Origin: Verrucomicrobiota bacterium
Lineage (GTDB): Bacteria; Verrucomicrobiota; Verrucomicrobiia; Opitutales; Puniceicoccaceae
Assembly: GCA_038744685.1 (NCBI GenBank)
Contig: JBCDMB010000001.1
Coordinates: 186,001 to 250,000, forward strand
Direction of reading: 5' to 3'
Length of the DNA: 64,000 nucleotides
Shown here: in pieces, positions 7,524-51,834 of the stretch
Numbering within the stretch: the first letter of the stretch is position 1
How the letters are laid out: each line of letters starts with the position of its first letter
Program-made: the position numbers and the translations under genes
The notes under the pieces: model-generated
Seen by the model: only the letters and a program-made list of their open reading frames with translations
What the model was told of the DNA's origin: nothing
Database searches by the model: none

Positions 7524-7545
7524 AGGGCAAAGAAATTCCCCGGTA

Positions 7546-8196
7546 TCACTTTGGGAACCATTTCTTGTAGTCTACTTTTCCGTTGAAAAGGGGGGAAACC
7601 GTTTGGGTCTCGACCAGAAAACCCGGTTGATCCAAATGGAGCTGCAAAGTGGTAAGCTCTGGAAGCAAGACTTTGTTCACGGGAATGGTGAGGTCGATTC
7701 CATGCCGGTCTTCTCCCAGTAGAAAGGTTGGGTGGTCGTGGTTTGTGCCTTTTTCGGTGTCGAAGAGTTCGATATCTTTTTCATTGGGTTGGTTCTCGTC
7801 TACAAAAACACCAAAGCAGGCACCTCTACGCCAGGGACTGAGCACGGTGAAAGTGGACTCACGTCCCGTCCTGAGGATCTCCCTTGCAGTCCATATGAGT
7901 CCGGAGAATCTGAAATGGGTGCAGCCGCTAGGACTATCCAGACCTTTCCACGATTCTAGAATCATGGAAAGGGTCCTCAGTGCCAGGAGTGAACCGGGAC
8001 CTCCCGAATAGCAAATAGAGTCCATTTCCGAGGGCTTCATTTCTGCGGACGCAAGGACATTTCGAATCACCGTGGCAATTCCTTCCACCGGTCTTCCGGG
8101 TATGCTTTCTGAAGCAATCCATCGGGCTTCCTTTTGGATTGCTGCGTCGGCACGGTTTCCTTCAACGCCGACAGTCAAAGTGACTCCGTTGTTCAC
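7546..8196 (-). CDS. tsaB: tRNA threonylcarbamoyladenosine biosynthesis protein TsaB-like
   Basis: A 216-residue ASKHA-fold protein. The diagnostic segment is SGGPGSLLALRTLSMILESW (about 64-83), the counterpart of the GPGSFTGLRIG block of TsaB, preceded by the typical MKPSEMDSICYSGGPG layout. TsaB is the non-catalytic dimer partner of TsaD in making t6A37 on ANN-decoding tRNAs. The remaining sequence is divergent and the C-terminal half is short. The start is GTG 8196 (no ATG is available). It is 5 bp downstream of rpoN and 22 bp upstream of alr. The family assignment is good, the function is inferred by homology. Confidence 0.75.
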   Translation of the reverse strand: MNNGVTLTVGVEGNRADAAIQKEARWIASESIPGRPVEGIATVIRNVLASAEMKPSEMDSICYSGGPGSLLALRTLSMILESWKGLDSPSGCTHFRFSGLIWTAREILRTGRESTFTVLSPWRRGACFGVFVDENQPNEKDIELFDTEKGTNHDHPTFLLGEDRHGIDLTIPVNKVLLPELTTLQLHLDQPGFLVETQTVSPLFNGKVDYKKWFPK

Positions 8197-8201
8197 CCAA
8201 C

Positions 8202-9641: not shown

Positions 9642-9689
9642 GGTATGATTCTTGCTAGCAGATCCGTGGAAGGTCTGCAAGCGTTGGGT

Positions 9690-10790
9690 CTACGCAAACC
9701 GGAAGTGGACCACGTCTCCGTCAACAACCTCGTATTCCTTGCCTTCCAGCCGGAATTTTCCGGCATCTCTGGCACCTTGTAGGCTGCCGGCCTCCACTAA
9801 ATCAGAGTAGGTCACGACCTCCGCTTTGATGAATCCTTTCTCAAAGTCGGTGTGAATAACACCTGCGCATTGAGGGGCCTTCATTCCCTTCCGGAAAGTC
9901 CATGCCCTGACTTCGGGCTCTCCGGCGGTGAGGAAGGAGGCGAGGCCCAATAGCTCGTAGGTGGAGCGAATCAAAAGACCAACGCCTGAATCGCGGACGC
10001 CTAGCTCAGCGAGGAATTCTCGTGCTTCGTCAGGCTCAAAATCGATCAGCTCCGCCTCGGTTTGCGCGCTTATGATACAAACTCCAGCGCCACCGCGTTG
10101 TTCTGCGTAATTCTTCACCGCTTTCACCGAGTTCAAGGAGTTTGCATCTGCCAAGTCAGTGTCGGCCACGTTGCAGGCGTAGAGCACTGGTTTGGATGAC
10201 AGCAAATTCAAGTGAGGCAATAATGAGTCTTCACCTTCTTCCAGAGGTAGTTGGAAAGCCGCTTTACCCTCATTGAGGAAAGGAATGAGGCGCTGAATCA
10301 GCGTGAGGGATTTTGCTGCATCCTTGTCACCACCACGGGCCTTCTTTTGGACTTTCGTTTCCTGACTGGCCAGGCTCTGGAGGTCTGCGAGGATCAGTTC
10401 GGTCTCGATCGTCTCGATATCCCGCACCGGGTCGATCTCTCCCATGGTGTGAACGACATCCGCATCTTCAAAACAGCGAACCACCTGAACAATCGCATCG
10501 ACCTCCCGAATATTTGCGAGAAATTGATTTCCCAGACCATCCCCTTTGCTTGCTCCGGCAACGAGTCCGGCAATGTCGACCATCTCGACCGCTGCGGGGA
10601 CGATCTTTGTTGTCGAAACGAGCTCTGCAAGTGGGGCGAGCCGCTCGTCAGGTACCGTCACCACACCGACATTCGGTTCGATCGTGCAAAAAGGATAGTT
10701 CTGAGCCTCAGCCTTTCGGGTCCGCGTAAGCGCGTTAAAAAGAGTGCTTTTTCCGACATTCGGTAGTCCAACAATACCAGCTTGCAGCAT
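9690..10790 (-). CDS. ychF: Redox-regulated ATPase/GTPase YchF (Obg family)
   Basis: A 366-residue TRAFAC P-loop protein of the Obg/YchF class that binds ribosomes and hydrolyses ATP. The G1 motif [15 protein letters not shown] starts at residue about 8, followed by [11 protein letters not shown] (switch I), [21 protein letters not shown] (G3, given here by its two ends) and a helical domain; the C-terminal TGS domain holds [22 protein letters not shown]-like [17 protein letters not shown] and [19 protein letters not shown]. Length and order are normal. It appears to be the first gene of the minus-strand run that continues into rpoN. ATG 10790 gives the invariant [15 protein letters not shown]. 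Confidence 0.96.
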
Positions 10791-10959
10791 TCTCTTTATG
10801 CATAGGCGAAAAGTATCATTGTCGAGACCAATAGTGGAAATGAGATTCGTAGGGAGTAGGATCGGACTTCTCCATGAAGGGTATCAGCATGCGAGGTGCA
10901 CCTGCGTTCCACAAATACCTTGGAGGTGATTATTCGAATCCTGCTCAGGTAACTCTATT

Positions 10960-11847
10960 TTAGCACCGGCTTTCTCTCGGTCTTCTCCTGAATCCGCAAA
11001 CGAGTGCAAATGCCCCAAAAGCGAAGATGAATCCGGCAAACGCAGGCTCCGGAACCGGAGTGAACGTCAAGTTGTCGAATGCGAAATAGGCAGGTGTGTT
11101 AAGGCCGAAATCACCTGTGTCGGTCCCTGCGATTGAGAACTCCAAGGTATCGATTTCGCTGAAGTTGAGGGTCCATGTATTCCATTCCTCTTCGATCTCA
11201 AACGAGCCGGAGCTCACGTTCCACTCTGCTAAACGAACAGTTGATGTGTCTACTGGTGATCCTCCAAGATACCCGGTTGCAGTTACCTCAAAAAAGTCAC
11301 CAACTCCGAAGGGCGTTAGGGAGTTGTCGTATTCGTCAAGGTAAGTTCCATCGGCGTATTTGGTGACAAAACTGTTTGTCGGAACCTCTTCCATATCGTT
11401 CCAGCCGTCTGCTCCGAATAAAAGGGCGTAATAGACATATGTTGTATTGGTTATGTCGATTGACTGGACTGTAGCAGAGCCCGCCGAAAAGGTGATGCCT
11501 TCCTCGGAGTTGAAATAGATCCCGTAGACATCGTCGCCGTTTCCGCTACCGGTTATGGCCTTCATTTCATTTGCGAATCCAACGGTATCGGAACCAAATG
11601 CGGTGGCCGTCTCGCTCGAAGTGCTGAAACCGTCCCAGAAGCGAGAAGAACCGAACTCGTTGGCATCGAAACCATAGATTGCCCCGTTATCCATAAAGCT
11701 CTGATTTTCGCCAACGGGTCCGTTGTTTGGGTTGTTGTTTAGGTTCGGCCCAGGGAGCAACCCGGTGAGGGTCGAAATATTCCCCGAGACGGGCAAGGCG
11801 GATAGCAGCAAGATCCATATGGTCGAGATGATTCTTTTACTTGTCAT
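10960..11847 (-). CDS. Secreted PEP-CTERM protein with a DUF4465-like domain
   Basis: A 295-residue exported protein. Residues 1-22 are a signal peptide. The body (about 45-260) fits DUF4465, with FWDGFSTSS near the start and the closing GLNTPAYFAFDNLTFTPV. The C-terminus is a complete PEP-CTERM signal: PVPEPAFAGF, a hydrophobic helix, then the basic cluster GFRRRPRESRC. PEP-CTERM proteins are sorted by exosortase and are often surface or exopolysaccharide-linked. No exosortase gene is in the window. It lies downstream of, and on the same strand as, the prepilin gene, with a 156-bp gap. The role is unknown. Confidence 0.82.
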   Translation of the reverse strand: MTSKRIISTIWILLLSALPVSGNISTLTGLLPGPNLNNNPNNGPVGENQSFMDNGAIYGFDANEFGSSRFWDGFSTSSETATAFGSDTVGFANEMKAITGSGNGDDVYGIYFNSEEGITFSAGSATVQSIDITNTTYVYYALLFGADGWNDMEEVPTNSFVTKYADGTYLDEYDNSLTPFGVGDFFEVTATGYLGGSPVDTSTVRLAEWNVSSGSFEIEEEWNTWTLNFSEIDTLEFSIAGTDTGDFGLNTPAYFAFDNLTFTPVPEPAFAGFIFAFGAFALVCGFRRRPRESRC

Positions 11848-12003
11848 GATTGTTTTCGCTATTGTTTGTAGTTAAAGATTATCGAGAAGCGTTTGTCGGC
11901 GATCCGTTGTCAGTCCTTAGCGCGATTTGAGTAGTGAAGAGAGTCGTGTGCGAGTAGGAGAGAATAGTCTGGTGATTCAAAAGAGGCTTTCGGTTGTTCA
12001 AGT

Positions 12004-12798
12004 TTATTGATTCTCTGGATTCCAGAAACCGTTGTTTTCGTCGGGTCCAAACCAGCCGAGCATTTGTGTGTCTGCATTTCCACCGTGGGGATTGTGCCCG
12101 ACATCCCTGGACTCGATAGATTCAAAAGACACATGTCCGTCGCACCAGGCGGCGAGAGCCCGACCGCTGAAGCGGAAATGGACGCTGGGAGAGGGGCGCA
12201 TTCCACTCGGTCCGCTGCCAAAGTCCCAGAAAGGAGGGTGGCTGAAGGGATACTCCTGAACAGAGTCGCCTGTTGCGTACGCAGAGGAGGTGAACATGAC
12301 GGTTCTGGACGGCTCCAAAATCTGGGACGGACGGGCGGCGATCCTGTCGCCGTCGCTGTCCCATGCGCGGCGCCCTCCGGATTGCCCCTCAGGTCGACCA
12401 CCGACGTAATTGTCGTTGTAGCCGTAACCTCCGGCTCCGCTTTCGAAACTATCGCCTCCGGTCACCATTTCCGTGAAGAGCGGGCACGGCGTCACTTGAC
12501 GGGACTCACCGAGATAATCGGCGAGGTAGCCAAGAGCAGGGTCGAAGGAACCGTCGGAAGCTCTTCCACCGCTCCATCGTTTTGTATTATTTCGGTTCGC
12601 AATCGGAGCAAAGGTTCCGTGCTCGGCAGCATAATTGAGATTTGCGACGGCTAGCTGGCGGATATTTGTGGCACTACGGATAGCCAGTGAAGACGAATGG
12701 GCAGATTGCACAGACGCGCTTATTGCTGCACCGAGAAGTAGGACAACTGTAAGAGCCAGAACCAGCTCAATGAGAGTGAATCCAGACCTTCGCCTCAT
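12004..12798 (-). CDS. Type II secretion/type IV prepilin-like protein with DG-motif C-terminus
   Basis: A 264-residue pseudopilin. The N-terminus MRRRSGFTLIELVLALTVVL has the prepilin peptidase site G|FTLIE and the hydrophobic N-terminal helix. The C-terminal part is of the H-x9-DG type abundant in Planctomycetes and Verrucomicrobia, seen as VHFRFSGRALAAWCDGHVSF; here the usual His (HSGxxN) is Phe, so the motif is atypical. The start overlaps the stop of the upstream surface-protein gene by 4 bp (ATGA at 12795-12798), showing translational coupling. Its place behind two secreted proteins suggests a dedicated export or display role, which is inference. Confidence 0.85.
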   Translation of the reverse strand: MRRRSGFTLIELVLALTVVLLLGAAISASVQSAHSSSLAIRSATNIRQLAVANLNYAAEHGTFAPIANRNNTKRWSGGRASDGSFDPALGYLADYLGESRQVTPCPLFTEMVTGGDSFESGAGGYGYNDNYVGGRPEGQSGGRRAWDSDGDRIAARPSQILEPSRTVMFTSSAYATGDSVQEYPFSHPPFWDFGSGPSGMRPSPSVHFRFSGRALAAWCDGHVSFESIESRDVGHNPHGGNADTQMLGWFGPDENNGFWNPENQ

Positions 12799-14252
12799 GA
12801 AGAGTCTTGCTGAACGATTTCGACCTTGAAGAAACGGTGAGCCGCCTCAGCCACAGTTTTCGTGTCGCGCACGGTCACCCTACGAATCACACCAATCGAA
12901 GCGATCTCGCTGTCACTGGTTTCAGAGATTTCGGGATTCATGCCTTCGACTGCGACGAGCGGCTGTCCGCCCGTTGAACTTGCCATCAATTCCCAGTCCT
13001 CTGGATTCAAAAGGCTATCGGTTACCCAGACTTTGTAGGTCAGGTCGGTAAGACGCTCGTCCCGGCGAAAGGTGAACTCTGCGCGTCGTTCGCCATCTTT
13101 TTCGACGATGGCAATATGACAAGGGTGAACTTCTGATTGAGCCTTCCAGGGCAGCATAGCGAACGCGTATTCCTCGAGGTTAGTCAGCCCATCGTTTTCC
13201 GGGTCATCGCCAGGATCGCGGTCGGTGGCTGTCAAAAGTTGGAGTTGTGGCCATTCCAGATAGGTCATCTGTTGGGAGATGGCACCTATGGCCTCAATGT
13301 CTGCTCCCCCAGAACCCCAGGTCCACCAGGCGTCGTAGATGGGGTGGTCGGTTGAGAACGGCAGATCGGTCGCGGGATCGGTGAGTCCAGTGGCATTATC
13401 GGAAAACAGACCTGTGCCCGGGATATCGACCAACCGGATGTGGGTTACCTGCGAAAGCCCAACTTGGGCGATATCAAACGGTGTGCCCCAGGAAAAGCCA
13501 TAGGCGTTGGAGTGTTTGCCGGCCAAATTGTATACCTGCGATGAGTCGATCGTCGCATACGGGCCGATCGTTCCATTTTGAAAAGGTCCTGGCGATGTGA
13601 GTGAGGCAGATGGGAATCGCACGAAGTTGACTCCATCCGCTGAAACCTCGACGTAGACAAGTTCCGCGGAAATCTCACCGGCAACTGTGCCGTTCACTGT
13701 CGAAGAATTGGCGACAAATCCGTTCTCAAACACCGTGAAATCTGCTCCCGTCATATCCCGGATTGGCTCGTCAAAAACGACAGTGATTGTCCCGGGACCT
13801 GTGCTGGTAGGATGGTTTGAATCGTTCGGCCACTCGCTGGGCCACGTGTCTCCCAGCGAAACGATGTCGAAAACATCGCCGGTGACCGGCCCAAGGATGT
13901 TGGCCGGATCGACAAATCCCGGATCGTAGTCATACATGAAGTCGTAGAGAGCCTGTGCATCTGGATCGTCGATCAATGAATATCCAGCGACTGAATCGGC
14001 CCAACCGAAAAAGAGCGGATTCACGTAGTTATCCGGATTGGCAACGAAACCCACTCCGTCGTCGATATTCGCCTTTCCGATGCCATCCGGTCCAACGAAG
14101 CCGGGAATAGGAGCATCCCAAGGGTTGTTCGGATCATCGAGAGATATTGAGAAGGGTCCACCCCCAGGAGAGGGATCAATGGGCGACTGATTGGCCGCCA
14201 GACTTCCAGCGATCAAGAGTATGAGCACGATCTGAACAAGGACCAGCTTCAT
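12795..14252 (-). CDS. Secreted surface protein, paralogue of its upstream neighbour, with C-terminal Ca-binding type module
   Basis: A 485-residue exported protein. Residues 1-19 are a signal peptide. The central region (about 150-310) shares a domain with the gene at 14249-15268: GADFTVFENGFVANSS / GADFAVFENGFGFGGG, VSADGVNFVRFPSASL / ISTNGSDFLRFPSISL, and YNLAGKH plus GTPFD in both. After it comes DPENDGLTNLEEYAFAM, a thrombospondin-type-3-like calcium repeat, and a C-terminal beta module ending in VTVRDTKTVAEAAHRFFKVE, common in verrucomicrobial secreted proteins. No PEP-CTERM signal. Both ends overlap neighbours by ATGA (14249-14252 and 12795-12798). Function unknown. Confidence 0.82.
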   Translation of the reverse strand: MKLVLVQIVLILLIAGSLAANQSPIDPSPGGGPFSISLDDPNNPWDAPIPGFVGPDGIGKANIDDGVGFVANPDNYVNPLFFGWADSVAGYSLIDDPDAQALYDFMYDYDPGFVDPANILGPVTGDVFDIVSLGDTWPSEWPNDSNHPTSTGPGTITVVFDEPIRDMTGADFTVFENGFVANSSTVNGTVAGEISAELVYVEVSADGVNFVRFPSASLTSPGPFQNGTIGPYATIDSSQVYNLAGKHSNAYGFSWGTPFDIAQVGLSQVTHIRLVDIPGTGLFSDNATGLTDPATDLPFSTDHPIYDAWWTWGSGGADIEAIGAISQQMTYLEWPQLQLLTATDRDPGDDPENDGLTNLEEYAFAMLPWKAQSEVHPCHIAIVEKDGERRAEFTFRRDERLTDLTYKVWVTDSLLNPEDWELMASSTGGQPLVAVEGMNPEISETSDSEIASIGVIRRVTVRDTKTVAEAAHRFFKVEIVQQDSS

Positions 14253-15268
14253 CGACGTTTACGACGGCGGCGCAGGCAGAACGGAAGCGAACTGAGGCCT
14301 AGGATCAGAGCAAATGCGGTTGGTTCAGGTACGACGTTGATCGCACCAACAGAGCCAGTTGGCAGACCAAGGTAGTCGAATCCACTCGAGTCGAAGGTTA
14401 CCCAGTTGTCCAAAATGGGATTACCTAAAGAATCCAAATCAAGACCCGCGATGGGGCTACCTTCGTCCAGCAATTCGCCGCTTCCAACCACATCGACGAG
14501 CCGAATGAAGTTGATCTCATTCAAATCGACGTCGCCGTTGATCACCTCGGGTGCCGAGACCAGTTCGTTCAAATCAAAAGGCGTTCCTAGGTTGGTTCCG
14601 TGCTTACCGGCTAAGTTGTAGACGTTCGTCATGTCGTAAAGTTGAAACGTGCCAAGTGTGCTCACAGCCTCCGTGTTGAGCGAGATTGAAGGAAAGCGTA
14701 AGAAGTCAGATCCATTGGTGGATATTTCAACATGTGCTAGTTCTGCAAAAAACCCGCCTCCAAAGCCAAAGCCATTTTCAAACACGGCGAAATCCGCACC
14801 GGCGCCGTTGAAGATCGGATTGGCGAAGCCGACAGTGATGGAACCGGGTCCGTCGATTCCAATGAATCCGTAGGAGTCTGTAGAACTATTTACATCTCCA
14901 GAAAAATTGTCGGTAACACCACTCCCTGCATGAAAGGAGCTTGGCTCCGAACCGACCTCGGGCCGGTAGAGACGATCAAAGCCTAAAGGAAGTCCGGTCG
15001 GTCGACTTACTGGGCTGTAGAGATCACCTAGCGACGCAGAGCCACCTGAAGGGTTTTGAAAACCAGACCCGACGCCGGGCGCAGGGGAATAATCTACAAT
15101 TGAATCTTCGAAGATGGAGATATCTGACCGCGGAATCGGGTTGTCTGGCGCACCCTCAGTGCCTCCCGAGAAGTCAGAGTAGGGGCCTGCCAAGGCAGAA
15201 TTTACCATCAACAATGACGCGGCAAATGCGACGGAGCTGTTTGTGCCAATGCTTGTTTTCATGCTCAT
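14249..15268 (-). CDS. Secreted PEP-CTERM protein
   Basis: A 339-residue exported protein. The N-terminus is a signal peptide ending around SALA-GPYSD (two adjacent Met codons, 15268 and 15262, are both possible starts). The central domain (about 130-260) is shared with the protein encoded immediately downstream. The C-terminus carries VVPEPTAFALILGLSSLPF and RRRRKRR, a textbook PEP-CTERM sorting signal. It is the first gene of a three-gene coupled set (PEP-CTERM protein, surface protein, prepilin). The shared domain in tandem genes points to duplication followed by loss of the sorting signal in the second copy. Ligand and role unknown. Confidence 0.82.
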   Translation of the reverse strand: MSMKTSIGTNSSVAFAASLLMVNSALAGPYSDFSGGTEGAPDNPIPRSDISIFEDSIVDYSPAPGVGSGFQNPSGGSASLGDLYSPVSRPTGLPLGFDRLYRPEVGSEPSSFHAGSGVTDNFSGDVNSSTDSYGFIGIDGPGSITVGFANPIFNGAGADFAVFENGFGFGGGFFAELAHVEISTNGSDFLRFPSISLNTEAVSTLGTFQLYDMTNVYNLAGKHGTNLGTPFDLNELVSAPEVINGDVDLNEINFIRLVDVVGSGELLDEGSPIAGLDLDSLGNPILDNWVTFDSSGFDYLGLPTGSVGAINVVPEPTAFALILGLSSLPFCLRRRRKRR

Positions 15269-15296
15269 CAGGTGACGATTTGTAGTCTCAAAGAGG

Positions 15297-16358
15297 TCAA
15301 TCCAGTCTCCCGCTCCTTCTACACGCGAAAAGCAATGCGAATCCGGAAAACAGCAAAGCGTAGATCGCAGGCTCAGGGACGATGGTCACTTCGAGAATAT
15401 CTCCGCCGGGAGAAGGTGTAAAATAAAGGGGATCTCCCTGGCTAAAGTCGCCGTCCACCGAAATAGCTCCGTAAAATTCTGTGAAGTTATTCGACGAAAC
15501 AATCGTTTCGTAGGTTCCGGTTTCGGTGTCCAGCCAACCGAGAGTGTGTAGGTCATTGGTCCCCGAGAAATCGTTTACCGCGAAGAAGACATTCCCTCCC
15601 GCGTCTACGGCCAATCCGTTGCCACCTCCTGGGAGGGCCCAAGTTTCGGCCGCATCACCGAGAGTGAGGAAAGTGTCCTCCTCGTCGGCGTAGAGGTCGT
15701 TGACCACGCTAGCGACCTGCGAGGCGGTCCAGCGATAAAGGGTGTTGGTCGTAAATGTCCCATAATAAAAATCGCCATTCGGGGCAATTGCCAGATGGGC
15801 GGAGTTCCCGGCCGTTTCAATCAATGTATCATGGCGAGCCGGATCTCCACCGGGAATTGCAAGGTGGTCGAAGGCAAAGACAAAATTAGATTGACCTGTG
15901 GTACCATTCCAGGGCTCGGCTAGGCCGGAAACATACAATTGGCCACTAGAGACTTGTCCTCCGTAAGCGTTGATCATCGTCACACCTTCAGGTCCGGGAG
16001 TCTGCCATGAGCCGCCGCTGCCGTTGTAGGTGTAGACATCGCTGTCTGAAAAGCCGTAAAGCGAGGCTGCGTAGAATAGATTATTCGAAGAGTCGTAAAC
16101 TCCAAAGGCGTCTCCAAAGCCATTCGAGAGGGTTCCCCCGGGCGGAAGACCTATAGGGTTGGTAGTACCGGAAGCGGTATCGTAGGTCGAATAACCTCCT
16201 GATGCTGTCCAGTAATGGATAGTGCCGTTATTTGCGGTAAACTGCCCTTCGGGTGATATGGGAATCGTCGAAACGTTGTAGACAGCGTGCAAGTTGACCG
16301 TGAGTGTCAATAACGAGCATGCTAGGACTGGCCTCTTTACTGTTTTTAGATGGATCAT
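15297..16358 (-). CDS. Secreted PEP-CTERM protein, probable beta-propeller
   Basis: A 353-residue exported protein. Signal peptide about 1-26. The body has repeated blade-like segments rich in Gly/Asn/aromatics (YDSSNNLFYAASLYG; IAPNGDFYYGTF; VDAGGNVFFAVNDFSGT), suggesting a beta-propeller, which is inference. The C-terminus IVPEPAIYALLFSGFALLF-ACRRSGRLD is a PEP-CTERM signal. I chose ATG 16358 because GAGG lies nine bases upstream; a GTG at 16379 would extend it by seven residues. It is divergent from the Fur-like gene, and the palindrome at 16470-16491 sits between them. The 28-bp gap to the next PEP-CTERM gene makes one transcript from here to the prepilin gene plausible. Confidence 0.82.
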   Translation of the reverse strand: MIHLKTVKRPVLACSLLTLTVNLHAVYNVSTIPISPEGQFTANNGTIHYWTASGGYSTYDTASGTTNPIGLPPGGTLSNGFGDAFGVYDSSNNLFYAASLYGFSDSDVYTYNGSGGSWQTPGPEGVTMINAYGGQVSSGQLYVSGLAEPWNGTTGQSNFVFAFDHLAIPGGDPARHDTLIETAGNSAHLAIAPNGDFYYGTFTTNTLYRWTASQVASVVNDLYADEEDTFLTLGDAAETWALPGGGNGLAVDAGGNVFFAVNDFSGTNDLHTLGWLDTETGTYETIVSSNNFTEFYGAISVDGDFSQGDPLYFTPSPGGDILEVTIVPEPAIYALLFSGFALLFACRRSGRLD

Positions 16359-16469
16359 TGGGAAAAGCCTCGGTTGCACTCACTGCATTCAGTGACCGAA
16401 GCTGCACGGGAAATCTGAAATAGTGCGATCGACATACCGGCAATTTTGTCTCGTTTATTCAAAGTTTAC

Positions 16470-16491
16470 TAATGATAATTTAATATCATTA
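16470..16491. promoter_or_regulatory. 22-bp palindromic operator candidate between Fur-like gene and PEP-CTERM operon
   Basis: Perfect 8-bp arms TAATGATA and TATCATTA flank the AT-only spacer ATTTAA. The site resembles Fur-family boxes, which are built on TGATAAT/ATTATCA half-sites, but its centre is even-numbered rather than odd. It lies 47 bp before the start of the Fur-like gene and 112 bp before the divergent PEP-CTERM gene, in the only AT-rich stretch of this region. Autoregulation and control of the secreted-protein genes is inferred. Confidence 0.6.
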
Positions 16492-16537
16492 ATGAAAGTA
16501 TTGAAGTGTCGGGCGCAGACAAGTTTTTTTGTTTCAG

Positions 16538-16930
16538 ATGCAACAGCGAAATACGAAACAACGAGCTGTAATCGAATCTATAATCGAAACTACTGCCCGG
16601 CCTCTTACTCGAGCTGAGATCTGGGAGGAGGCCAAGAAACCGTTGCCGTCGGTTGGTTTCGCAACGGTCAGTCGAGCGGTGAATGACTTTCTTGCGGAAG
16701 GACGATTGATCGCTCTCCGCTATCCGGGTCAGCCGACACGGTATGAAAAGCTAACCAACAAAGAGCATCCTCATCTCCTTTCACACAAGGACGGGAAAAT
16801 CTATGATTTGGACCTACCCATGCCGGAGGTGAAGATTCCTAAGATTCCTGGTGTGACTATTACCGGCTACGAAGTGCTGTTTTTTGGGGAACCGCTGGAA
16901 GACGATGATACGGGCGGCCCGGAATTATAG
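16538..16930 (+). CDS. Fur-family transcriptional regulator lacking the zinc cysteines
   Basis: A 130-residue regulator. The N-terminal winged helix is clear: RNTKQRAVIESIIETTARPL, then AEIWEEAKK and SVGFATVSRAVNDFLAEG (compare LATVYRTLKxLxExG in Fur) and GQPTRYEK. The second half keeps only part of the metal/dimer domain: EHPHLLSHKDGKIYDLDLP replaces the usual HHHLxCxxCGxVxE, so the two Cys of the first CxxC and one His are missing and the C-terminal CxxC is absent. It ends with acidic EPLEDDDTGGPEL. Metal sensing may be altered or lost. Start ATG 16538 (a TTG three codons earlier is less likely). It is divergent from the PEP-CTERM operon, with a palindrome between. Confidence 0.8.
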   Translation: MQQRNTKQRAVIESIIETTARPLTRAEIWEEAKKPLPSVGFATVSRAVNDFLAEGRLIALRYPGQPTRYEKLTNKEHPHLLSHKDGKIYDLDLPMPEVKIPKIPGVTITGYEVLFFGEPLEDDDTGGPEL

Positions 16931-44541: not shown

Positions 44542-45414
44542 TCACGCTGTAAATTCTTGGTGGGCAGCTAGGTGTCGTGCCCGATAGGTACGGGGGGTGC
44601 AGCCAAAGCGACGTTGAAACTGATTATTGAAATTGGAGAGGTTGTTGTAGCCTCCAGAAAAGGCGATTTCAGAAATGGAGGAGTCGGATTCAATGAGCTG
44701 TTGGGCGACATTGGAAAGGCGAAGTCCCTGAATGTATGAGTTGGGAGTGCAGCCAATGCGTTGACGAAAGTTTCGGTGAAAAGAAGATTCACTCATACCG
44801 GCAAGCTTGGCGAGTTGGGCGTTGGTAAGAGAGCTGGTGCTGTTTTGGTGAATGTGAGCGAGTACCGTTTCGAGTTGCTTGATCTGTCTGTCGGGGTTCT
44901 TCAGATTGTATCCTTGGGAAGCGAGAGCTTGGGCATCTATGGTCTCGTTAGCGACGTACAGCAGGTTAAAGAGATGAGCGATAGCAGCCATGCCTGAAAA
45001 GGCGAAAACATGATCGAGTTGATCCGAAATTGTGCTGGCGGATATCCCTTGCAGAAGGAGCCCACGGGACGCGCGCTGGTAGATTCGGTTGATCGTAGGT
45101 GTTGTCTCGGGGAGATGTTTGCTCACCTCGAAGATCCGATTGGAGTCGAACTGAAGGCAACGAGAACGGGATAAACGAGTGCCTTTTACGTTGATAAAAG
45201 CATGAGGGAGATTGCTCCCGAAAAGGTAGATTTGGCCGGGTTGAAATTCGCCAACATAATCGCCAACAAGAACGCGACCGGTACTTTGATCGATCCGCAG
45301 AACCTCGAATTCAGGATGTCGGTGATAGGGACAATCGAAAGTTTCCTGATCGAAGTCTCGGCAGCTTAAGGTCTCGGATTTTTGATCGAGGATTTGTTCA
45401 CGAATCGCGCGCAT
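44542..45414 (-). CDS. AraC-family transcriptional regulator
   Basis: A 290-residue regulator. The N-terminal cupin-like sensor has CPYHRHPEFEVLRI and GEFQPGQIYLFGSNLPH. The C-terminal pair of helix-turn-helix motifs is standard: SLTNAQLAKLAGMSESSFHR and SISEIAFSGGYNNLSNFNNQ, with FRQRIGCTPNSYI and RRFGCTPRTYRARH. Its position divergent from the P450 operon suggests that it controls that operon, probably in response to a small ligand such as a sugar. Start ATG 45414. The 312-bp divergent region holds an inverted repeat at 45652-45675. Confidence 0.92.
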   Translation of the reverse strand: MRAIREQILDQKSETLSCRDFDQETFDCPYHRHPEFEVLRIDQSTGRVLVGDYVGEFQPGQIYLFGSNLPHAFINVKGTRLSRSRCLQFDSNRIFEVSKHLPETTPTINRIYQRASRGLLLQGISASTISDQLDHVFAFSGMAAIAHLFNLLYVANETIDAQALASQGYNLKNPDRQIKQLETVLAHIHQNSTSSLTNAQLAKLAGMSESSFHRNFRQRIGCTPNSYIQGLRLSNVAQQLIESDSSISEIAFSGGYNNLSNFNNQFQRRFGCTPRTYRARHLAAHQEFTA

Positions 45415-45726
45415 GGTTTTTGATTATTTTCCGCAGCCGGTCTTCCAGCCCGCCAAGGAGAGCCGTCGTCTTGCTCAAACCCAAAATTGCTCTCGTCAGG
45501 TCCAAAGGAGGTTAATCGAAGTGCCCTACAGCTGACTTTTAGTAGCGGATAAGCGTATCCTATCATAATATTGGCTAAAAAGTAGCATATTTGTGAGATT
45601 AATGGGAGAAAAACATTAGTTTTCGCTCCTAAAGCAGTAGAGAAAGTTTAGGGGATTAGTATACTCTCTAATACCATTGCACCGCGCGGGTCGCGGCCCG
45701 CGTAAGAAAGAGTAAGCCCTACTACC
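45415..45726. promoter_or_regulatory. Divergent AraC / P450 control region
   Basis: No gene in these 312 bp. The stretch 45535-45600 is AT rich (TATCATAATATTGG near 45560) and may hold the promoters. An imperfect inverted repeat lies at 45652-45675 (arms GGGATTAG and CTAATACC, 8-base spacer). A GC-rich hairpin CGCGGG-TCGCGG-CCCGCG follows at about 45685-45702, 24 bp before the P450 start, in the region of its ribosome-binding site. Confidence 0.5.
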
Positions 45727-46878
45727 ATGCCCGATCATCCTGACCCATTTCGCAAAGCTCGTGCCCGGGAGGGAGTTTTGAACGTCGATTGCGACGGCGA
45801 AAATGTGCCGCTCGTGCTCCGCCATGAGGATGCCAAGGAGACGGCGAAAGACTGGCAGACCTTCAGCAGTGACAATCCTCTGATGTGCGTTTTGCACTCG
45901 GAAGCGGATGTGCGTGGAGTGAGACAGCTCCCGCTTGAGATCGACCCACCGGATCATGCTGATTTCAGGGCTTTAGTGCAGCCGCTCTTCAATAAGCCGA
46001 GGGGTGACGCTAAGTTTATCGCTGCTATTGAGCAGATGATCGACGGGATGGTTAGAGAAGCTGTTGGTCTGGGTGAAATTGAAGTGGTGCGAGGATTTGT
46101 TCTTCCGATGCAGAGTAAGGCACTTGCTCTTTTACTTGGAATGCCGGAATCCGAGGCGGATGTTTGGATCAGTTGGGGTCTGCATGTGTTCCACGACCGA
46201 GATGACGACGCGGGTGATGGGCACTTGCTGGAGCAGTACACTGGGAGCCGTTTCAAGCAGGCAGAAGAGGAGCCTGGAAACGATTTTTTCAGCTACCTCA
46301 ACGAGGTTGAATTCCGTGGTCGCAAGTTGACCTTTGATGAGAAGCAAGGGTTCGCGAACGTGACCTTCGCGGGAGGGCGAGATACCATCATAAATACGGC
46401 TGCAAGCATTTTTGCGCACCTTGCCGAAGATCCCGACTCGCTGTTTTTCCTAAGGGAAGATGAATCACGAATCAATCTCGCGGCAGAAGAGTTCGTGCGC
46501 TACGTAAGCCCACTGACCGCGATCACCCGAAAGTGCCCGCACATGGCAAAATTGGCAGGGCAGGAAGTTCCTGAAGGGGGACGGATTGCGATTTGTTGGC
46601 CCTCCGCTAATCGGGATGAAGCGGTATTTGAAGAACCCGATGAGCTCCGTTTGGATCGGGATCCAAATCCCCACATTGGCTACGGGTTTGGCCGTCACAA
46701 TTGCCTCGGCGCGCACCATGCCCGTCTTCTGTTTCGCACCCTGATGAAGTCGCTTTGTAGACATGTGGAGCGCATGGTCCTCATCGAAGCCGAACCGAAG
46801 ATGGAGAAAGAATCTTCCTACGAGCGGCAGGTCGGTTATGAGTCTGTTCACGTCCGTTTCTTCTCGCGCGATGCGTGA
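45727..46878 (+). CDS. Soluble cytochrome P450
   Basis: A 383-residue bacterial class P450 without membrane anchor. The heme-thiolate loop is YGFGRHNCLGAHHAR with Cys326. The I-helix oxygen-activation motif is FAGGRDTIINTA and the K-helix ExxR is EEFVRY. The early block LPLEIDPPDHADFRALVQPL is typical of soluble bacterial P450s. It inserts one oxygen atom into an unknown substrate using two electrons from NADPH. The next gene encodes a diflavin reductase whose possible GTG start overlaps the P450 stop, which strongly suggests that they are partners. Downstream dehydrogenase and esterase imply that the product is an alcohol or an aldehyde such as formaldehyde. ATG 45727. Confidence 0.93.
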   Translation: MPDHPDPFRKARAREGVLNVDCDGENVPLVLRHEDAKETAKDWQTFSSDNPLMCVLHSEADVRGVRQLPLEIDPPDHADFRALVQPLFNKPRGDAKFIAAIEQMIDGMVREAVGLGEIEVVRGFVLPMQSKALALLLGMPESEADVWISWGLHVFHDRDDDAGDGHLLEQYTGSRFKQAEEEPGNDFFSYLNEVEFRGRKLTFDEKQGFANVTFAGGRDTIINTAASIFAHLAEDPDSLFFLREDESRINLAAEEFVRYVSPLTAITRKCPHMAKLAGQEVPEGGRIAICWPSANRDEAVFEEPDELRLDRDPNPHIGYGFGRHNCLGAHHARLLFRTLMKSLCRHVERMVLIEAEPKMEKESSYERQVGYESVHVRFFSRDA

Positions 46879-46922
46879 TCAGATCTACGCCTGATTCCCC
46901 TCTGCACTGCTTAGAGACTGCG

Positions 46923-48659
46923 ATGAACGGCCCAGAAAAGGCACCCTTTACCGATGAACAGATTGCTTGGCTCAATAACCACCTCGCCAAGCAATTTAGC
47001 CAGATTGCAAAACAGCTTGCTTCCTTTCCGCTTTCCGTTGGCGAGGAGCCGAAGGTTCCCGTGACCATTCTATGGGGTTCGCAGACGGGAAATGCAGAAG
47101 GACTCGCGACTCAGATGGCGACTGCATTATCGGAGGGTCGCTTTGAACCATCTGTAAGTGAGGTAGCCAATTACGATGTCGCAAATTTGTCTTCAGAGGA
47201 GAATCTTCTTGTGGTGACCAGCACCTACGGTGATGGCGAGCCACCCGACAATGCGGTTGATTTCGTCGATGCCCTTTGTACGGATACAGCGCCGCGAGTT
47301 GAGGGACTTCGATTCTCCGTCCTGGCTCTAGGCGATTCTCAATATCCTGACTTTTGCGGAGCCGGTAAGAGGATCGACCAACGTCTCGCCGAACTGGGAG
47401 GAGAGCGCTTGTATGAGCGCGTGGATTGCGACGTCGATTTTGATCGACCTTTCGAGGTTTGGAAGAAGGGGGTGTTGGACGCCCTTGGAGCAGGAGCTGC
47501 GACATCCAAGCCTCGGGTTGCTCCAGCGAAAAAGGAGTCTTTTGGAAAGAAGAGGCCGTTTCCTGCACCTATTCTCAACAACTATGACCTCAATCGGGAA
47601 GGTGCCTTCAAGTCCACTCACCACATTGAACTTTCACTCAATGGCTCCGGCCTCGAATACGAAGCTGGAGACGCGCTCGGCGTCTATCCGGTAAACGACG
47701 AGAATGTGGTCGATGAGATTATCGCTGCTCTATCTTTTGACGCCGAAGCTGAGGTGCCACTCCCTGACGGTGGAGAAGCGCCCTTGCGGGAAGCTCTGCT
47801 GAAGAACTACGAGATCCGAACCCTGAGCAAGAAGCTGATCACCGTTTGGCAGGAGCGTAGTGGTTCGGAATCGCTCAAGTCGCTGATCGAAGAAGACAGC
47901 AATGAGGCATGGGAAGAGTTCTTTTTTGGGCGTGACTTGGTTGATCTGGTTATCGACTATCCGGCGAATTTTCACAGTGTTGAGGAGTTTGTGGGCGTTT
48001 TGAAGAAACTGCACCCGCGGCTCTATTCAATTGCCTCTAGCCCGCAAGCTCACCCTGGAGAAGTTCATCTTACGGTGGGAGTGGTCACCTACGAGACATA
48101 TGGTCGTTTGAGGGGAGGAGTCTGTTCGACCTATCTGGCGAACCGAAGCAATGGTTCTCTTCCGAGTGTCTTTGTGCAGCCCAACAAGGCTTTCCGTCCT
48201 CCCGCAAATGATGATGCCCCGATGATTATGGTCGGGCCGGGAACAGGGATCGCACCCTTCCGGGCCTTTCTGGAAGAGCGCGAGGGCAGGGGAGCGAAGG
48301 GGAAGAATTGGCTCTTCTTCGGGAACCCTCACCGCGCAACCGATTATCTCTACGAGGAGTCGTTGGAAGGTTGGAGGGAGAATGGTCTTTTAAGTAAGCT
48401 GGACCTCGCTTTTTCACGTGACCAGACAGAGAAGGTGTATGTGCAGCACCTCATGCTCGAAAGTGGAGCAGAGATCTGGGAGTGGTTGGAAGAGGGGGGC
48501 TACTTTTTTGTGTGCGGCGATGCTTTGCGAATGGCCAAGGATGTGGACAAAGCACTCCACCAGATCGTGCAGGTTTACGGAGGAAAATCGGAGGACGAGG
48601 CGCAGCACTACATCAAGATCCTCAAGAAGGAAAAACGCTACGCCCGCGACGTTTACTAA
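46923..48659 (+). CDS. Diflavin NADPH reductase (CysJ / P450-reductase type)
   Basis: A 578-residue FMN/FAD reductase. The flavodoxin domain (about 40-190) has TILWGSQTGNAEGLATQMA and TSTYGDGEPPDNA; the FAD/NADPH half has LYSIASSP (FAD), GGVCSTYLA, MIMVGPGTGIAPFRAFLEER and the C-terminal YARDVY characteristic of CysJ. No cysI (sulfite reductase hemoprotein) is adjacent, while a P450 gene is directly upstream, so it most likely feeds electrons from NADPH to that P450. Start ATG 46923; a GTG at 46875 overlaps the P450 stop (GTGA) and would add 16 residues. A 40-residue N-terminal helical lead precedes the flavodoxin domain, as in many CysJ proteins. Confidence 0.9.
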   Translation: MNGPEKAPFTDEQIAWLNNHLAKQFSQIAKQLASFPLSVGEEPKVPVTILWGSQTGNAEGLATQMATALSEGRFEPSVSEVANYDVANLSSEENLLVVTSTYGDGEPPDNAVDFVDALCTDTAPRVEGLRFSVLALGDSQYPDFCGAGKRIDQRLAELGGERLYERVDCDVDFDRPFEVWKKGVLDALGAGAATSKPRVAPAKKESFGKKRPFPAPILNNYDLNREGAFKSTHHIELSLNGSGLEYEAGDALGVYPVNDENVVDEIIAALSFDAEAEVPLPDGGEAPLREALLKNYEIRTLSKKLITVWQERSGSESLKSLIEEDSNEAWEEFFFGRDLVDLVIDYPANFHSVEEFVGVLKKLHPRLYSIASSPQAHPGEVHLTVGVVTYETYGRLRGGVCSTYLANRSNGSLPSVFVQPNKAFRPPANDDAPMIMVGPGTGIAPFRAFLEEREGRGAKGKNWLFFGNPHRATDYLYEESLEGWRENGLLSKLDLAFSRDQTEKVYVQHLMLESGAEIWEWLEEGGYFFVCGDALRMAKDVDKALHQIVQVYGGKSEDEAQHYIKILKKEKRYARDVY

Positions 48660-48670
48660 GCCCGTTTTCT

Positions 48671-49780
48671 ATGCCTATCCAAGCAAAAGCAGCAATCTCC
48701 GATGGTGAGGGGTCCTTCTCCATAGAAACTATTGAGGTGAACCCGCCGAAGCGGGGTGAAGTCCTCGTTGCAATCCAGGCGTCTGGCCTTTGCCACACTG
48801 ATTACGATTCCCTGACCTGGGGCTTTGAACACATCATGGGGCACGAAGGTGCGGGTTTTGTGGAAGCGGTGGGTGAGGGTGTCGACCATGTTGAGGTGGG
48901 TGACAAAGTCCTGCTGAACTGGGCGATTCCATGTAAGGATTGCTTCCAGTGCCAGAACGGCAAACAGAACATTTGTGAGGTAAACTCGCAGGTCACTGGC
49001 AAAGATAAATTCGAAGGCATGGCGCATCCAGAGGCCAGTATTTGGAAGGGCAAACCGGTGAAGCGCTCGTTCAACATCGGTACGCTCAGCAGCCACACGG
49101 TGGTGAAGAAGGAGGCTGTTATTCCGTATACTACTGAGATCCCGTTCACTTCGGCTTGTATCATAGGTTGCGGTGTAATGACTGGTTACGGTTCGGTTGT
49201 GAATTCTGCCAAGCTAGCTGCGGGGAGTAGCGCCGTTGTGCTCGGAACGGGTGGCGTGGGACTCAACTCGATTCAGGGAGCACGTATTTCCGGCGCGGCT
49301 AAGGTCATCGCGATCGATGTGAACGAGGAACGTCTCAAAATGGCCAAGCAGTTTGGTGCCACCCATACAATCCTCGCTTCGCGGGAGGACAAGAGGCTGA
49401 TGCAAGCCTCGGAGAAAGTGAAGCAGCTTTGTGGTGGCCGTGGTGCAGACTACGCCTTCGAGTGCACGGGAGTACCTGCTCTTGGTGCTGCCCCACTAGC
49501 GATGATCCGCAGCGCTGGCACAGCGGTGCAGGTCTCAGGCATCGAAGAAGAAATTACGATCGATATGAACCTATTCGAGTGGGATAAGGTTTACATCAAC
49601 CCGCTCTATGGTGGCGCGATGCCCGAATTCGACTTTCCGAAGCTGCTCGAACTCTACGAGCACAAACAACTCAAGCTCGATGAGCTGATTACCCGCACCT
49701 ATCTCCTTGAGGACTTGCAAAAGGCCATCGACGACATGATGGCTGGCCGTAACGCAAAGGGTGTAATTTCTTTTGAATAA
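48671..49780 (+). CDS. Zinc-dependent alcohol dehydrogenase, class III-like
   Basis: A 369-residue medium-chain dehydrogenase. Catalytic zinc ligands are in SGLCHTDYDSL, IMGHEGAGFVE and IIGCGVMTGYG; the structural zinc site is intact as CKDCFQCQNGKQNIC. The NAD-binding motif is VLGTGGVGLNSIQGARISGA with the acidic IAIDVNEERL (Asp, hence NAD preference). The set of motifs fits class III (S-hydroxymethyl-thiol) or aryl/alkyl alcohol dehydrogenases. It is the third gene of the P450 operon, 11 bp after the reductase, and may oxidise the alcohol or the thiol adduct of formaldehyde made by the P450. Start ATG 48671; the longer frame overlaps the reductase. Confidence 0.92.
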   Translation: MPIQAKAAISDGEGSFSIETIEVNPPKRGEVLVAIQASGLCHTDYDSLTWGFEHIMGHEGAGFVEAVGEGVDHVEVGDKVLLNWAIPCKDCFQCQNGKQNICEVNSQVTGKDKFEGMAHPEASIWKGKPVKRSFNIGTLSSHTVVKKEAVIPYTTEIPFTSACIIGCGVMTGYGSVVNSAKLAAGSSAVVLGTGGVGLNSIQGARISGAAKVIAIDVNEERLKMAKQFGATHTILASREDKRLMQASEKVKQLCGGRGADYAFECTGVPALGAAPLAMIRSAGTAVQVSGIEEEITIDMNLFEWDKVYINPLYGGAMPEFDFPKLLELYEHKQLKLDELITRTYLLEDLQKAIDDMMAGRNAKGVISFE

Positions 49781-49806
49781 GGATTTGAAACCACGGATCA
49801 CGGATC

Positions 49807-50619
49807 ATGAAAGATGCGAAGACATCCCATTTCCGCACGACTGAGATCGGTGAATTTCCCTGTACTCGCGGCACTCATAAGGTGGTCACGGTCAAAAGTC
49901 CGGCCCTCAAAGCGAGGGCAGATCTTTCCATTTTCGTTCCTGAGCAAGCCGAAGGTTGCATCGACCTTCCGGTCGTCACTCTTCTGCACGGCGTTTATGG
50001 AAGCCACTGGATCTGGGCTTTGACGGGCAAAGCCCACGAGACTCTACAGGACCTAGTCGATGAGGGTGAAGTGTCACCGATGCTACTGGCTTTACCCTCT
50101 GACGGACTCTGGGGCGACGGCAGTGGCTATGTTCCTCATTCCAGGCAGGATTTTGATGCGTGGATCTCGCAAGATGTGCGGGAAGCGGTCAGTGAAATTA
50201 CGGGCAACCGTAGTAATACACCGCACTTCATCGGCGGTCTTTCGATGGGAGGCTTCGGTGCTTTGCGCCTCGGGGCAAAGTACCCCGAGCGGTACAAAGC
50301 CTTCGCCGGGCATTCCTCCATCACGTCGATTGATCAAATGTCACTCTTTGTTGAGGAGCCGATTGAAGCCTATCCGGAAGTCAAGGGTATTGAACGAAAC
50401 GTTTTGGACGCGATCATGGCCAACCGCGACCGTATTGGCCCTTTCCGTTTTGACTGTGGGGTAGATGACCCGCTCATCGAACACAACCGAACGCTGTCGA
50501 GGGCACTAGATGACGCGGGCGTGGAATTTACCTACGAGGAATTTCCCGGTGGCCACGAGTGGCCCTATTGGGAAGAGCATGTGGTAAGTACCTTCAAGTT
50601 CTTTGCAGCGCAGCTGTAG
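49807..50619 (+). CDS. Alpha/beta-hydrolase of the esterase D / S-formylglutathione hydrolase family
   Basis: A 270-residue hydrolase. The oxyanion region is TLLHGVYGSHWIWALTG, the nucleophile Ser is in GGLSMGGFGALRLG, and the His end is FPGGHEWPYWEEHV; FRFDCGVDDPLIEHN provides the acid. These blocks match the esterase D superfamily, which includes S-formylglutathione hydrolase and some carbohydrate esterases. It lies 26 bp after the alcohol dehydrogenase. Together with a class III-like ADH it suggests thiol-dependent formaldehyde removal, but deacylation of a carbohydrate is also possible. Confidence 0.88.
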   Translation: MKDAKTSHFRTTEIGEFPCTRGTHKVVTVKSPALKARADLSIFVPEQAEGCIDLPVVTLLHGVYGSHWIWALTGKAHETLQDLVDEGEVSPMLLALPSDGLWGDGSGYVPHSRQDFDAWISQDVREAVSEITGNRSNTPHFIGGLSMGGFGALRLGAKYPERYKAFAGHSSITSIDQMSLFVEEPIEAYPEVKGIERNVLDAIMANRDRIGPFRFDCGVDDPLIEHNRTLSRALDDAGVEFTYEEFPGGHEWPYWEEHVVSTFKFFAAQL

Positions 50620-50889
50620 CTGGTTTTTCCATGCTAAAATTCAAGCGTTCTTTTTCCGCCTATCCCGCTGGGATGCGATTGGACTGAAGGTCGCGGCGCT
50701 ACAGGGATTGAAACGTATCTCGATAAGAATCCAATTCCTGCTTCCTTCCCCTTCACTCCGTGAACTTCTGAGGACGCGGGCGCTGCTACGATTCTCCGCT
50801 GCACCACAACTACCAAACCTTTCTGAGTGGTCACGCGATTTGAAAACGACTGGAACTTGGAGATGTTATGTCAGAGAACCGCAATTTCA

Positions 50890-51834
50890 ATGCAACGAAT
50901 CTTGACCCTTACCTTTTCACTGTTTGTCGCAGCGGGAACACTCGTCGCGGAAAAACACCCGGAACTTGGCGACGTCGAGTGGCTCCGAAATTACGATCAG
51001 GCTGTCAAGGAGTCTGCTGAAAGCGAAAAGCCTCTCCTTATTCTCTTTCAGGAGGTGCCCGGGTGTGAGGGCTGCGTGATCTTTGGGCAGGACACGCTTT
51101 CTCACCCGCTCGTTGTCGATGCGATTGAGAATGACTTTGTGCCTCTGGCCATCCGAAACAATATCTCTACCGGTCATGATCGGGAAATCCTCGAGCGATT
51201 CGAGGAGCCCGCTTGGAACTATCAGGTCATGCGCTTTCTTGATACCAAGGGTGGTGACATCATTCCGCGAAAAGATCGTGTTTGGTCCATCGCGGGAACT
51301 GCCGAACGCATGATCCAAGCGTTGGAAGTAGCGAAACGACCGGTTCCTGATTACCTGCACTCCATCGTTTTGTCTCAGCCAGAGGCCCCTCTCAAGACAG
51401 CTGTTTTCAGCATGTATTGTTTCTGGGACGGGGAGGCCAAACTGGGCGGTATCGAGGGCGTTGCGGAGACTGAAGCAGGTTGGCTTGACGGCCGAGAAGT
51501 TGTTCGCCTTCGTTTCGATCCTGCAGTGATCGCCTGGCCGGAGCTGGTGCGAACTGCCCAATCCCATGGCTGTGCTAAGCACGTCTATGCACCTGACGCG
51601 GAATCGCTTAGGGAAACTCCTGCAGCCATAAATTCTCACGCTGAGCTCCTGATACCCAAGGCATACCGCAAAGCTCTCGCAAGCGATCAGAAGCGCCACT
51701 TGCAGTTTTCCAGCCTGAAAAACCTTCCTCTGAACCCAGTCCAGCTTACGAAGGTCAACGCCGCTCTTGCCAACAAGGATCAGGCCGCGATTGAGAGATG
51801 GCTCAGCCCAAGCCAGCGCAAGAGTTTGCAGTAA
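50890..51834 (+). CDS. Exported thioredoxin-like protein with MsrA-like C-terminal domain
   Basis: A 314-residue protein. The signal peptide is MQRILTLTFSLFVAAGTLVA. Residues 25-160 are a thioredoxin-fold domain with FQEVPGCEGCVIFG; Cys59 and Cys62 form a CxxC. This VPG-C-x-x layout recalls the VPGUxxT group of thioredoxin-like selenoproteins, here in the Cys form. Residues about 168-240 look like methionine sulfoxide reductase A: AVFSMYCFWDGEAKLGGIEG matches the GCFWGxE active-site block (Cys177), followed by VAETEAGWLDGREVV. The combination suggests repair of oxidised proteins or peptides outside the cytosol. It lies 270 bp after the P450 operon. Start ATG 50890 places the signal peptide correctly. 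Confidence 0.75.
   Translation: MQRILTLTFSLFVAAGTLVAEKHPELGDVEWLRNYDQAVKESAESEKPLLILFQEVPGCEGCVIFGQDTLSHPLVVDAIENDFVPLAIRNNISTGHDREILERFEEPAWNYQVMRFLDTKGGDIIPRKDRVWSIAGTAERMIQALEVAKRPVPDYLHSIVLSQPEAPLKTAVFSMYCFWDGEAKLGGIEGVAETEAGWLDGREVVRLRFDPAVIAWPELVRTAQSHGCAKHVYAPDAESLRETPAAINSHAELLIPKAYRKALASDQKRHLQFSSLKNLPLNPVQLTKVNAALANKDQAAIERWLSPSQRKSLQ

Follow-up and report, generated by a model that had tools for sequence, protein, structure and literature searches.

A P450 operon of Verrucomicrobiota with a CysJ-type diflavin reductase at the position of ferredoxin and ferredoxin reductase: a putative O-demethylation module for a methylated sugar

In marine Bacteroidota, a gene neighbourhood encoding a cytochrome P450, its redox partners, an esterase and an alcohol dehydrogenase (ADH) has been published for the demethylation of 6-O-methyl-D-galactose (G6Me) (Reisky 2018; Brott 2023, PMC10033563). 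The Bacteroidota reaction is described as consuming NADH, and the growth of Zobellia on G6Me, though not that on galactose, suffers strongly when the ADH gene is deleted (PMC10033563). Here we describe a related operon in a stretch of 64,000 nucleotides from a Verrucomicrobiota bacterium of marine type, referred to below as the window, which corresponds to positions 186001-250000 of contig C1 in a genome of 3.64 Mb in 56 contigs. The operon consists of genes for a P450, a CysJ-like diflavin reductase (DFR), a zinc ADH and an esterase. An earlier note, made from the letters of the window, had presented it as an undescribed system. This does not hold for the P450/ADH/esterase set, which is that of the published G6Me-demethylation neighbourhood, where ferredoxin and ferredoxin reductase serve as redox partners.

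The four genes are co-directional and tightly spaced, with 44 bp between P450 and DFR, 11 bp between DFR and ADH, and 26 bp between ADH and esterase, and they are preceded by a divergently oriented AraC-type regulator gene. These five genes, the gaps of 11-44 bp and the divergent regulator were all described correctly in the earlier note. A divergent AraC gene is common in the loci of relatives, facing away either from the P450 gene or from a ferredoxin gene that precedes it. The cofactor and catalytic motifs of all four enzymes are intact: the heme ligand Cys326 of the P450 sits within HIGYGFGRHNCLGA, the FMN, FAD and NADPH motifs of the DFR and the zinc ligands of the ADH are in place, and the esterase has its GLSMG motif. 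A GTG codon at 46875 does overlap the P450 stop, as had been pointed out; as the start of the DFR, however, ATG 46923 is likelier, because homologues begin at MxGPEKAPF.

For comparison, loci were taken from GTDB genomes. The survey comprised the best 80 of 406 ADH relatives, all from genomes other than the host, together with 21 further P450 loci; the P450 loci were drawn from 388 sampled genomes belonging to the phylum. Each locus was scanned for P450, ferredoxin, ferredoxin reductase, DFR, ADH and esterase genes; the genomes were sampled, not covered exhaustively. Across both sets of loci, the arrangement P450-DFR-ADH-esterase was seen only in the window and in genome G450 (locus L169), which consists of one contig and comes from a different family within the order of the host. 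The gene order is the same in both, and the proteins of the window and G450 share 94% identity for the P450, 81% for the DFR, 92% for the ADH and 77% for the esterase. The four-gene neighbourhood, which the earlier note had proposed to look for across Verrucomicrobiota, thus recurs once in this sample. Since it does so in the same order in a single-contig genome of another family, both a chance arrangement and an assembly artefact were ruled out.

The surveyed relatives use other redox genes. At 42 of the 80 ADH loci, all of them from Bacteroidota, P450, ferredoxin and ferredoxin reductase genes accompany the ADH and esterase. At 7 of the 80, all from Verrucomicrobiota, a ferredoxin gene lies directly before P450-ADH(-esterase) and no ferredoxin reductase is linked. 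No DFR was found at any of these 80. Where it does occur, in the window and G450, the DFR gene fills the slot between P450 and ADH, the slot that holds ferredoxin and ferredoxin reductase in many Bacteroidota. The earlier note had held that conservation of the P450 apart from its partners would count against the proposed system. P450, ADH and esterase are in fact widely kept without the reductase, so the module does not depend on the DFR and the four-gene set itself is rare.

The DFR has the domain set (flavodoxin, FAD, NADPH) and the terminal sequences of CysJ, but lacks the association with CysI. It matches the CysJ structure 6efv with E 8e-127, and its match to CysJ (~1e-127) is much stronger than that to the eukaryotic NADPH-cytochrome P450 reductase (CPR; 1e-77). 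The N-terminus is of the soluble CysJ type, MNGPEKAPFTDEQ..., and does not fit the membrane-anchored CPR lineage. The FMN, FAD and NADPH motifs are complete; they include SRDQTEKVYVQ, and the protein ends in ARDVY. The SRDQ-EK-YVQ motif, which matches CysJ and CPR in alignments, predicts the use of NADPH. With model TIGR01931 the protein scores 637.3 bits, under the equivalog cut-off of 668.15, and a NirA-linked paralogue in the host also falls just under it (662.6).

The host carries three CysJ-like genes. One, on contig C35, lies beside CysI; another, on C12, lies beside a NirA-family nitrite reductase and a nitrate-reductase-like molybdopterin oxidoreductase; the third is the DFR of the P450 operon. 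With the other two paired in this way, the third is left for the P450. The possibility that the DFR is the sole sulfite-reductase flavoprotein of the host was ruled out by the CysJ-CysI pair on C35. In a tree of 45 CysJ-like proteins, the two P450-linked DFRs form a clade with 100/100 support, apart from both the CysI-linked and the NirA-linked groups. No cysI was found in the locus, and a tight association of DFR orthologues with cysI, which the earlier note had named as evidence to the contrary, was not found either: the orthologues do not adjoin cysI. The reductases closest to the window DFR outside the operon belong to family f10 (69% identity in G235, 66% in G238). In the seven f10 loci that were read, no P450, CysI or NirA gene occurs within ~8 kb of the CysJ-like gene; the f10 genomes carry separate CysI and NirA genes, and CysI has its own CysJ. 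The simplest history suggested by these relationships is that an unlinked CysJ-like reductase of the f10 type was recruited into the module. The f10 genes at L210-L221 and L223-L229 are monocistronic, with 57-69% identity to the window DFR and no heme-protein partner nearby. As a separate observation, the NirA-family nitrite reductase usually adjoins a CysJ-like reductase and a nitrate-reductase-like molybdopterin gene in this order of bacteria (G000 C12, L055:6995-10505, minus strand; L141-L168), which suggests a nitrite assimilation driven by NADPH and a diflavin protein instead of ferredoxin.

The linked pair of [2Fe-2S] ferredoxin and Pyr_redox ferredoxin reductase is absent from the window locus, and these queries found none genome-wide. 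The module ferredoxin had no match in the host or the G450 genome, and matches in six of the six other module genomes searched. A Reductase_C-type ferredoxin reductase is likewise missing from the host and G450; it is also missing from the Verrucomicrobiota genomes with ferredoxin-type modules, so its lack alone says little. From the linkage, the conservation of the operon and the missing ferredoxin, we infer that the free-standing CysJ-like DFR serves the P450. In the part of the literature that was searched, the open-access part, we found no carbohydrate P450 described as having a diflavin reductase that stands free, and nothing useful on stand-alone bacterial P450 reductases, the sulfite-reductase interface, or P450 and fucoidan in Verrucomicrobiota. 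One paper on epothilone that mentions sulfite reductase was set aside, as it concerns ferredoxins.

Among solved structures, the window P450 matches 6g5o best (E 1e-94; the next best is 1.8e-38), which we take to be the Zobellia G6Me demethylase of Reisky et al. 2018. The 6g5o sequence differs little from L134, the P450 of the Z. uliginosa module, with which the window P450 shares 41% identity. In the P450 tree, the window and G450 proteins belong to a clade of 16 (100/100) with L032-L034 and P450s of family f81; the other P450s of this clade mostly lack the module genes. A position within the clade of Verrucomicrobiota ferredoxin-type P450s was ruled out by this tree, which places them in a sister subclade instead. 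The window ADH, unlike the P450, is nested among the ADHs of the Verrucomicrobiota ferredoxin-type modules. The operon thus looks composite, and G6Me itself is uncertain as the substrate. Besides this P450, the host has a second P450-like match (G000:C7:68156-68341, L058), with 45% identity over the heme region only.

The operon of G450 is flanked by genes for GH2, a sodium (SSS) symporter, a GH42-like protein and a GLAA-B-barrel beta-helix protein, the last of which may be read as GH110-like. The host genome of the window has 74 matches to the sulfatase family. Given the relatives of P450 and ADH, the galactan-type genes around the G450 operon and the abundance of sulfatases in the host, the substrate is most likely a methylated sugar of the red-algal galactan type.

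The ADH is closest to 8h2a (E 5e-166, 69% identity) and 8h2b (E 7.7e-156, 63% identity), with the next ADH at 1.7e-60; we read these two entries as the structures reported for FoADH and ZoADH by Brott et al. 2023. Its zinc ligands, C41/H58/C167 and C88/C91/C94/C102, are the same as in FoADH/ZoADH. The earlier assignment of the ADH to class III is contradicted by its score with TIGR02818 (229.3 bits against a cut-off of 543.95), and that of the esterase to S-formylglutathione hydrolases, as far as sequence goes, by its score with TIGR02821 (31.6 bits against 281.7). An AlphaFold model of the esterase (pLDDT 91.7) gave feruloyl esterases as best Foldseek matches (23-25% identity), followed by S-formylglutathione hydrolases (14-18%); the modelled fold is compatible with the hydrolysis of a formate ester or a thioester, without demonstrating it. 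ADH and esterase genes occur together at 76 of the 80 loci, almost always adjacent, and the two enzymes are likely to work together on successive steps, also where no P450 is adjacent. At 17 loci with full flanks, the pair has no P450 within ~8 kb (L068, L070, L088, L093, L096, L097, L100, L104, L111, L114, L115, L122, L125, L130, L133, L135, L138). The pair may also serve outside P450 demethylation, or an unlinked P450 may be its partner.

In our interpretation, to which we give a probability of roughly two in three, the operon encodes the oxidative O-demethylation of a methylated sugar, most likely one of the red-algal galactan type, with the DFR feeding the P450 directly. The comparisons above support the oxidative demethylation module of the earlier note, with the CysJ-like protein serving the P450; the algal methyl sugar that the note had named as a possible substrate is a probable one. 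In the presumed mechanism, electrons from NADPH would enter the DFR at its FAD and move on to its FMN, and the FMN domain would hand them singly and directly to the soluble P450, in place of the ferredoxin/ferredoxin reductase pair of the Bacteroidota module. The P450 would hydroxylate the O-methyl carbon, and the resulting hemiacetal would collapse to free sugar and formaldehyde. ADH and esterase would perform an auxiliary step, which is required in Zobellia (shown there for the ADH), and the AraC regulator presumably senses the sugar. If the electron transfer is as proposed, the operon would amount to a compact NADPH-driven system of two proteins for the demethylation of methylated sugars and to a natural experiment on the swap of redox partners in a P450 operon, and with it one could ask whether the electron source matters to the conserved ADH/esterase pair. 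With this survey, the range of G6Me-type modules also takes in Verrucomicrobiota. Marine Bacteroidota genera were the ones singled out in the published analysis of gene neighbourhoods, and the phyla listed in a 2025 paper are Pseudomonadota, Bacteroidota and Planctomycetota.

Several observations weigh against this interpretation. Just two of the sampled genomes carry the DFR variant, and the P450-linked DFR clade is nested (100/99 and 100/100) among the unlinked CysJ-like reductases of family f10 from the same class. At three Verrucomicrobiota P450-ADH modules (L062, L063, L071; the P450 match of L062 is partial) neither ferredoxin nor DFR was recognised nearby; the electron donor thus cannot always be read from the genes of a locus. 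The earlier note had proposed to see whether the neighbourhood lies near sulfatases or glycoside hydrolases; the flanks in G450 include glycoside hydrolase genes, but neither kind was present among the open reading frames scanned around the window operon. Finally, the P450, a member of the sister subclade, is altered at residues that are near-invariant in G6Me-type P450s: four residues near-invariant in the ferredoxin-type P450s differ in the window (R53->M, P246->E, G267->T, K/R312->D). They were chosen by a criterion derived in this analysis and unpublished, and assigning them to the substrate pocket or to the redox-partner face would be guesswork. A serious possibility, which we hold to be just short of even and which is a special case of the interpretation above, is that the P450 demethylates not G6Me but a different methyl ether, be it a further O-methyl hexose, an O-methyl pentose or a methylated oligosaccharide, with the same chemistry and a specificity that shifted along with the reductase. 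The separate clade of the window and G450 P450s, the four altered residues, the modest identity to the Zobellia P450 and the GH39-family hydrolase and sulfatase adjoining L034 would fit such a shift; the nesting of the ADH within the ferredoxin-type module clade and the galactan-related look of the G450 neighbours speak against it, and a role of the altered positions in substrate contact is conjectural. The L034 locus itself (6816-16644) combines a related P450 and a linked ferredoxin with a URO-D-family gene, possibly a methyltransferase, beside the hydrolase and sulfatase. A wider evolutionary scenario, which we regard as tentative, would make the DFR a dedicated P450 reductase that evolved from a CysJ-type DFR, turning a three-component NADH-driven demethylase into a two-component NADPH-driven one while the P450 shifted to a non-G6Me ether, within a wider radiation in which CysJ-like reductases of these bacteria take the place of ferredoxin for different heme enzymes (CysI, NirA, P450).

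It is quite unlikely that the DFR is a spare sulfite- or nitrite-reductase flavoprotein that landed in the operon while an unlinked ferredoxin feeds the P450. Its CysJ character (637 bits with TIGR01931) and its monocistronic relatives, whose genomes have CysI and NirA as well, are compatible with such an origin; however, the host already has its CysJ-CysI and CysJ-like-NirA pairs, the DFR is kept in the operon with the order preserved in two families, and both the module ferredoxin and the Reductase_C ferredoxin reductase are missing from the two genomes. As regards the auxiliary step, the earlier note had ADH and esterase oxidise thiol-bound formaldehyde to formate. That route is already disfavoured and we consider it very unlikely. 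The two genes do travel together at most loci, the esterase fold matches S-formylglutathione hydrolases among others, and formaldehyde release by this P450 family is published; but FoADH/ZoADH, 63-69% identical to the window ADH and with the same zinc ligands, did not oxidise formaldehyde with glutathione, mycothiol, bacillithiol or any other thiol tested, and their active site is too narrow for bulky thiols (PMC10033563). The 17 ADH-esterase pairs with no P450 close by also speak against it. By analogy with the oxidation of a hemithioacetal followed by thioester hydrolysis, the ADH might instead oxidise the sugar-O-CH2OH hemiacetal to a formate ester, which the esterase would cleave to sugar and formate, so that little formaldehyde would be freed. 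Such an interception would account for the need of the ADH on G6Me as opposed to galactose, and for the joint occurrence of the two genes. It is nonetheless unlikely, being pure inference: equimolar formaldehyde is reported for the P450 reaction, sugars were judged unlikely to fit the narrow ADH site (PMC10033563), and ADH-esterase pairs exist that have no nearby P450. Direct supply of electrons by the DFR, with formaldehyde released from the sugar, is the interpretation that we prefer.

Coordinates of the operon and of adjacent features are given in Table 1. The promoter candidate is suggestive only, since the scan found 1 where shuffled sequence gave a mean of 2.8, that is, not above expectation. 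A GC-rich inverted repeat lies ~25 bp 5' of the P450 start codon and could be a regulatory hairpin or operator. Just 3' of the operon is a gene for a thioredoxin-like protein of the VPGUxxT family, in which Cys (VPGC) replaces selenocysteine.

Table 1. Positions of operon genes and neighbouring features in the window
Feature	Coordinates	Strand	Basis
AraC/HTH_18 regulator, divergent from operon	44542..45414	-	HTH_18 1.4e-25 and cupin-like N-terminus
Weak sigma-70-like promoter candidate 5' of P450	45638..45665	+	TAGAGA-16-TATACT, 9/12 matches
Inverted repeat	45685-45702		CGCGGG-TCGCGG-CCCGCG
Cytochrome P450, 383 aa, heme thiolate Cys326, I-helix FAGGRDTIIN	45727..46878	+	PF00067
CysJ-type diflavin reductase, 578 aa, flavodoxin + FAD_binding_1 + NAD_binding_1	46923..48659	+	domain matches
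Zinc-dependent, NAD-type ADH, FoADH/ZoADH family, 369 aa	48671 (ATG)..49780	+	8h2a/8h2b matches
CE1-type serine esterase, 270 aa, GLSMG nucleophile motif, Ser146	49807..50619	+	PF00756
VPGUxxT-family thioredoxin-like protein, type 2	50827-51834	+	NF041383, 357 bits

Compared with the systems described so far, the window operon resembles the G6Me module of Zobellia and Formosa in its homologous P450, its ADH, the adjacent esterase and the AraC regulator; it differs in having a single CysJ-type DFR in place of ferredoxin and ferredoxin reductase, a P450 from a sister subclade with altered conserved residues, and no local polysaccharide-utilisation cluster. With the ferredoxin-type modules of Verrucomicrobiota (Rubritalea profundi, L059; Pelagicoccus mobilis, L061; an Opitutales metagenome-assembled genome, L064/G379) it shares the divergent AraC gene, the contiguous P450, ADH and esterase genes and an ADH that is 74-77% identical. 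Those modules have a [2Fe-2S] ferredoxin just 5' of the P450 and no linked reductase, whereas the window operon has no ferredoxin and carries the DFR between P450 and ADH. The DFR itself agrees with CysJ of the assimilatory NADPH-sulfite reductase in domain order, N-terminal helix region, NADPH motif and C-terminal DVY end, but it has no CysI partner, forms a separate clade, scores below the TIGR01931 cut-off and lies in a P450 operon. Like the eukaryotic (class II) CPR, it is a stand-alone FMN/FAD diflavin reductase and the presumed direct donor to a P450; it is, however, much closer to CysJ and has no membrane anchor in its N-terminal sequence, and its P450 is a soluble bacterial one. In self-sufficient fusions of the P450BM3 type a P450 is also driven by a diflavin reductase, whereas here the two are separate polypeptides and the P450 is of the G6Me family. 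Judged by its genes, the window operon is thus a variant of a described module, in which the new element is the replacement, in two genomes, of ferredoxin and ferredoxin reductase by a DFR that appears to be derived from CysJ.

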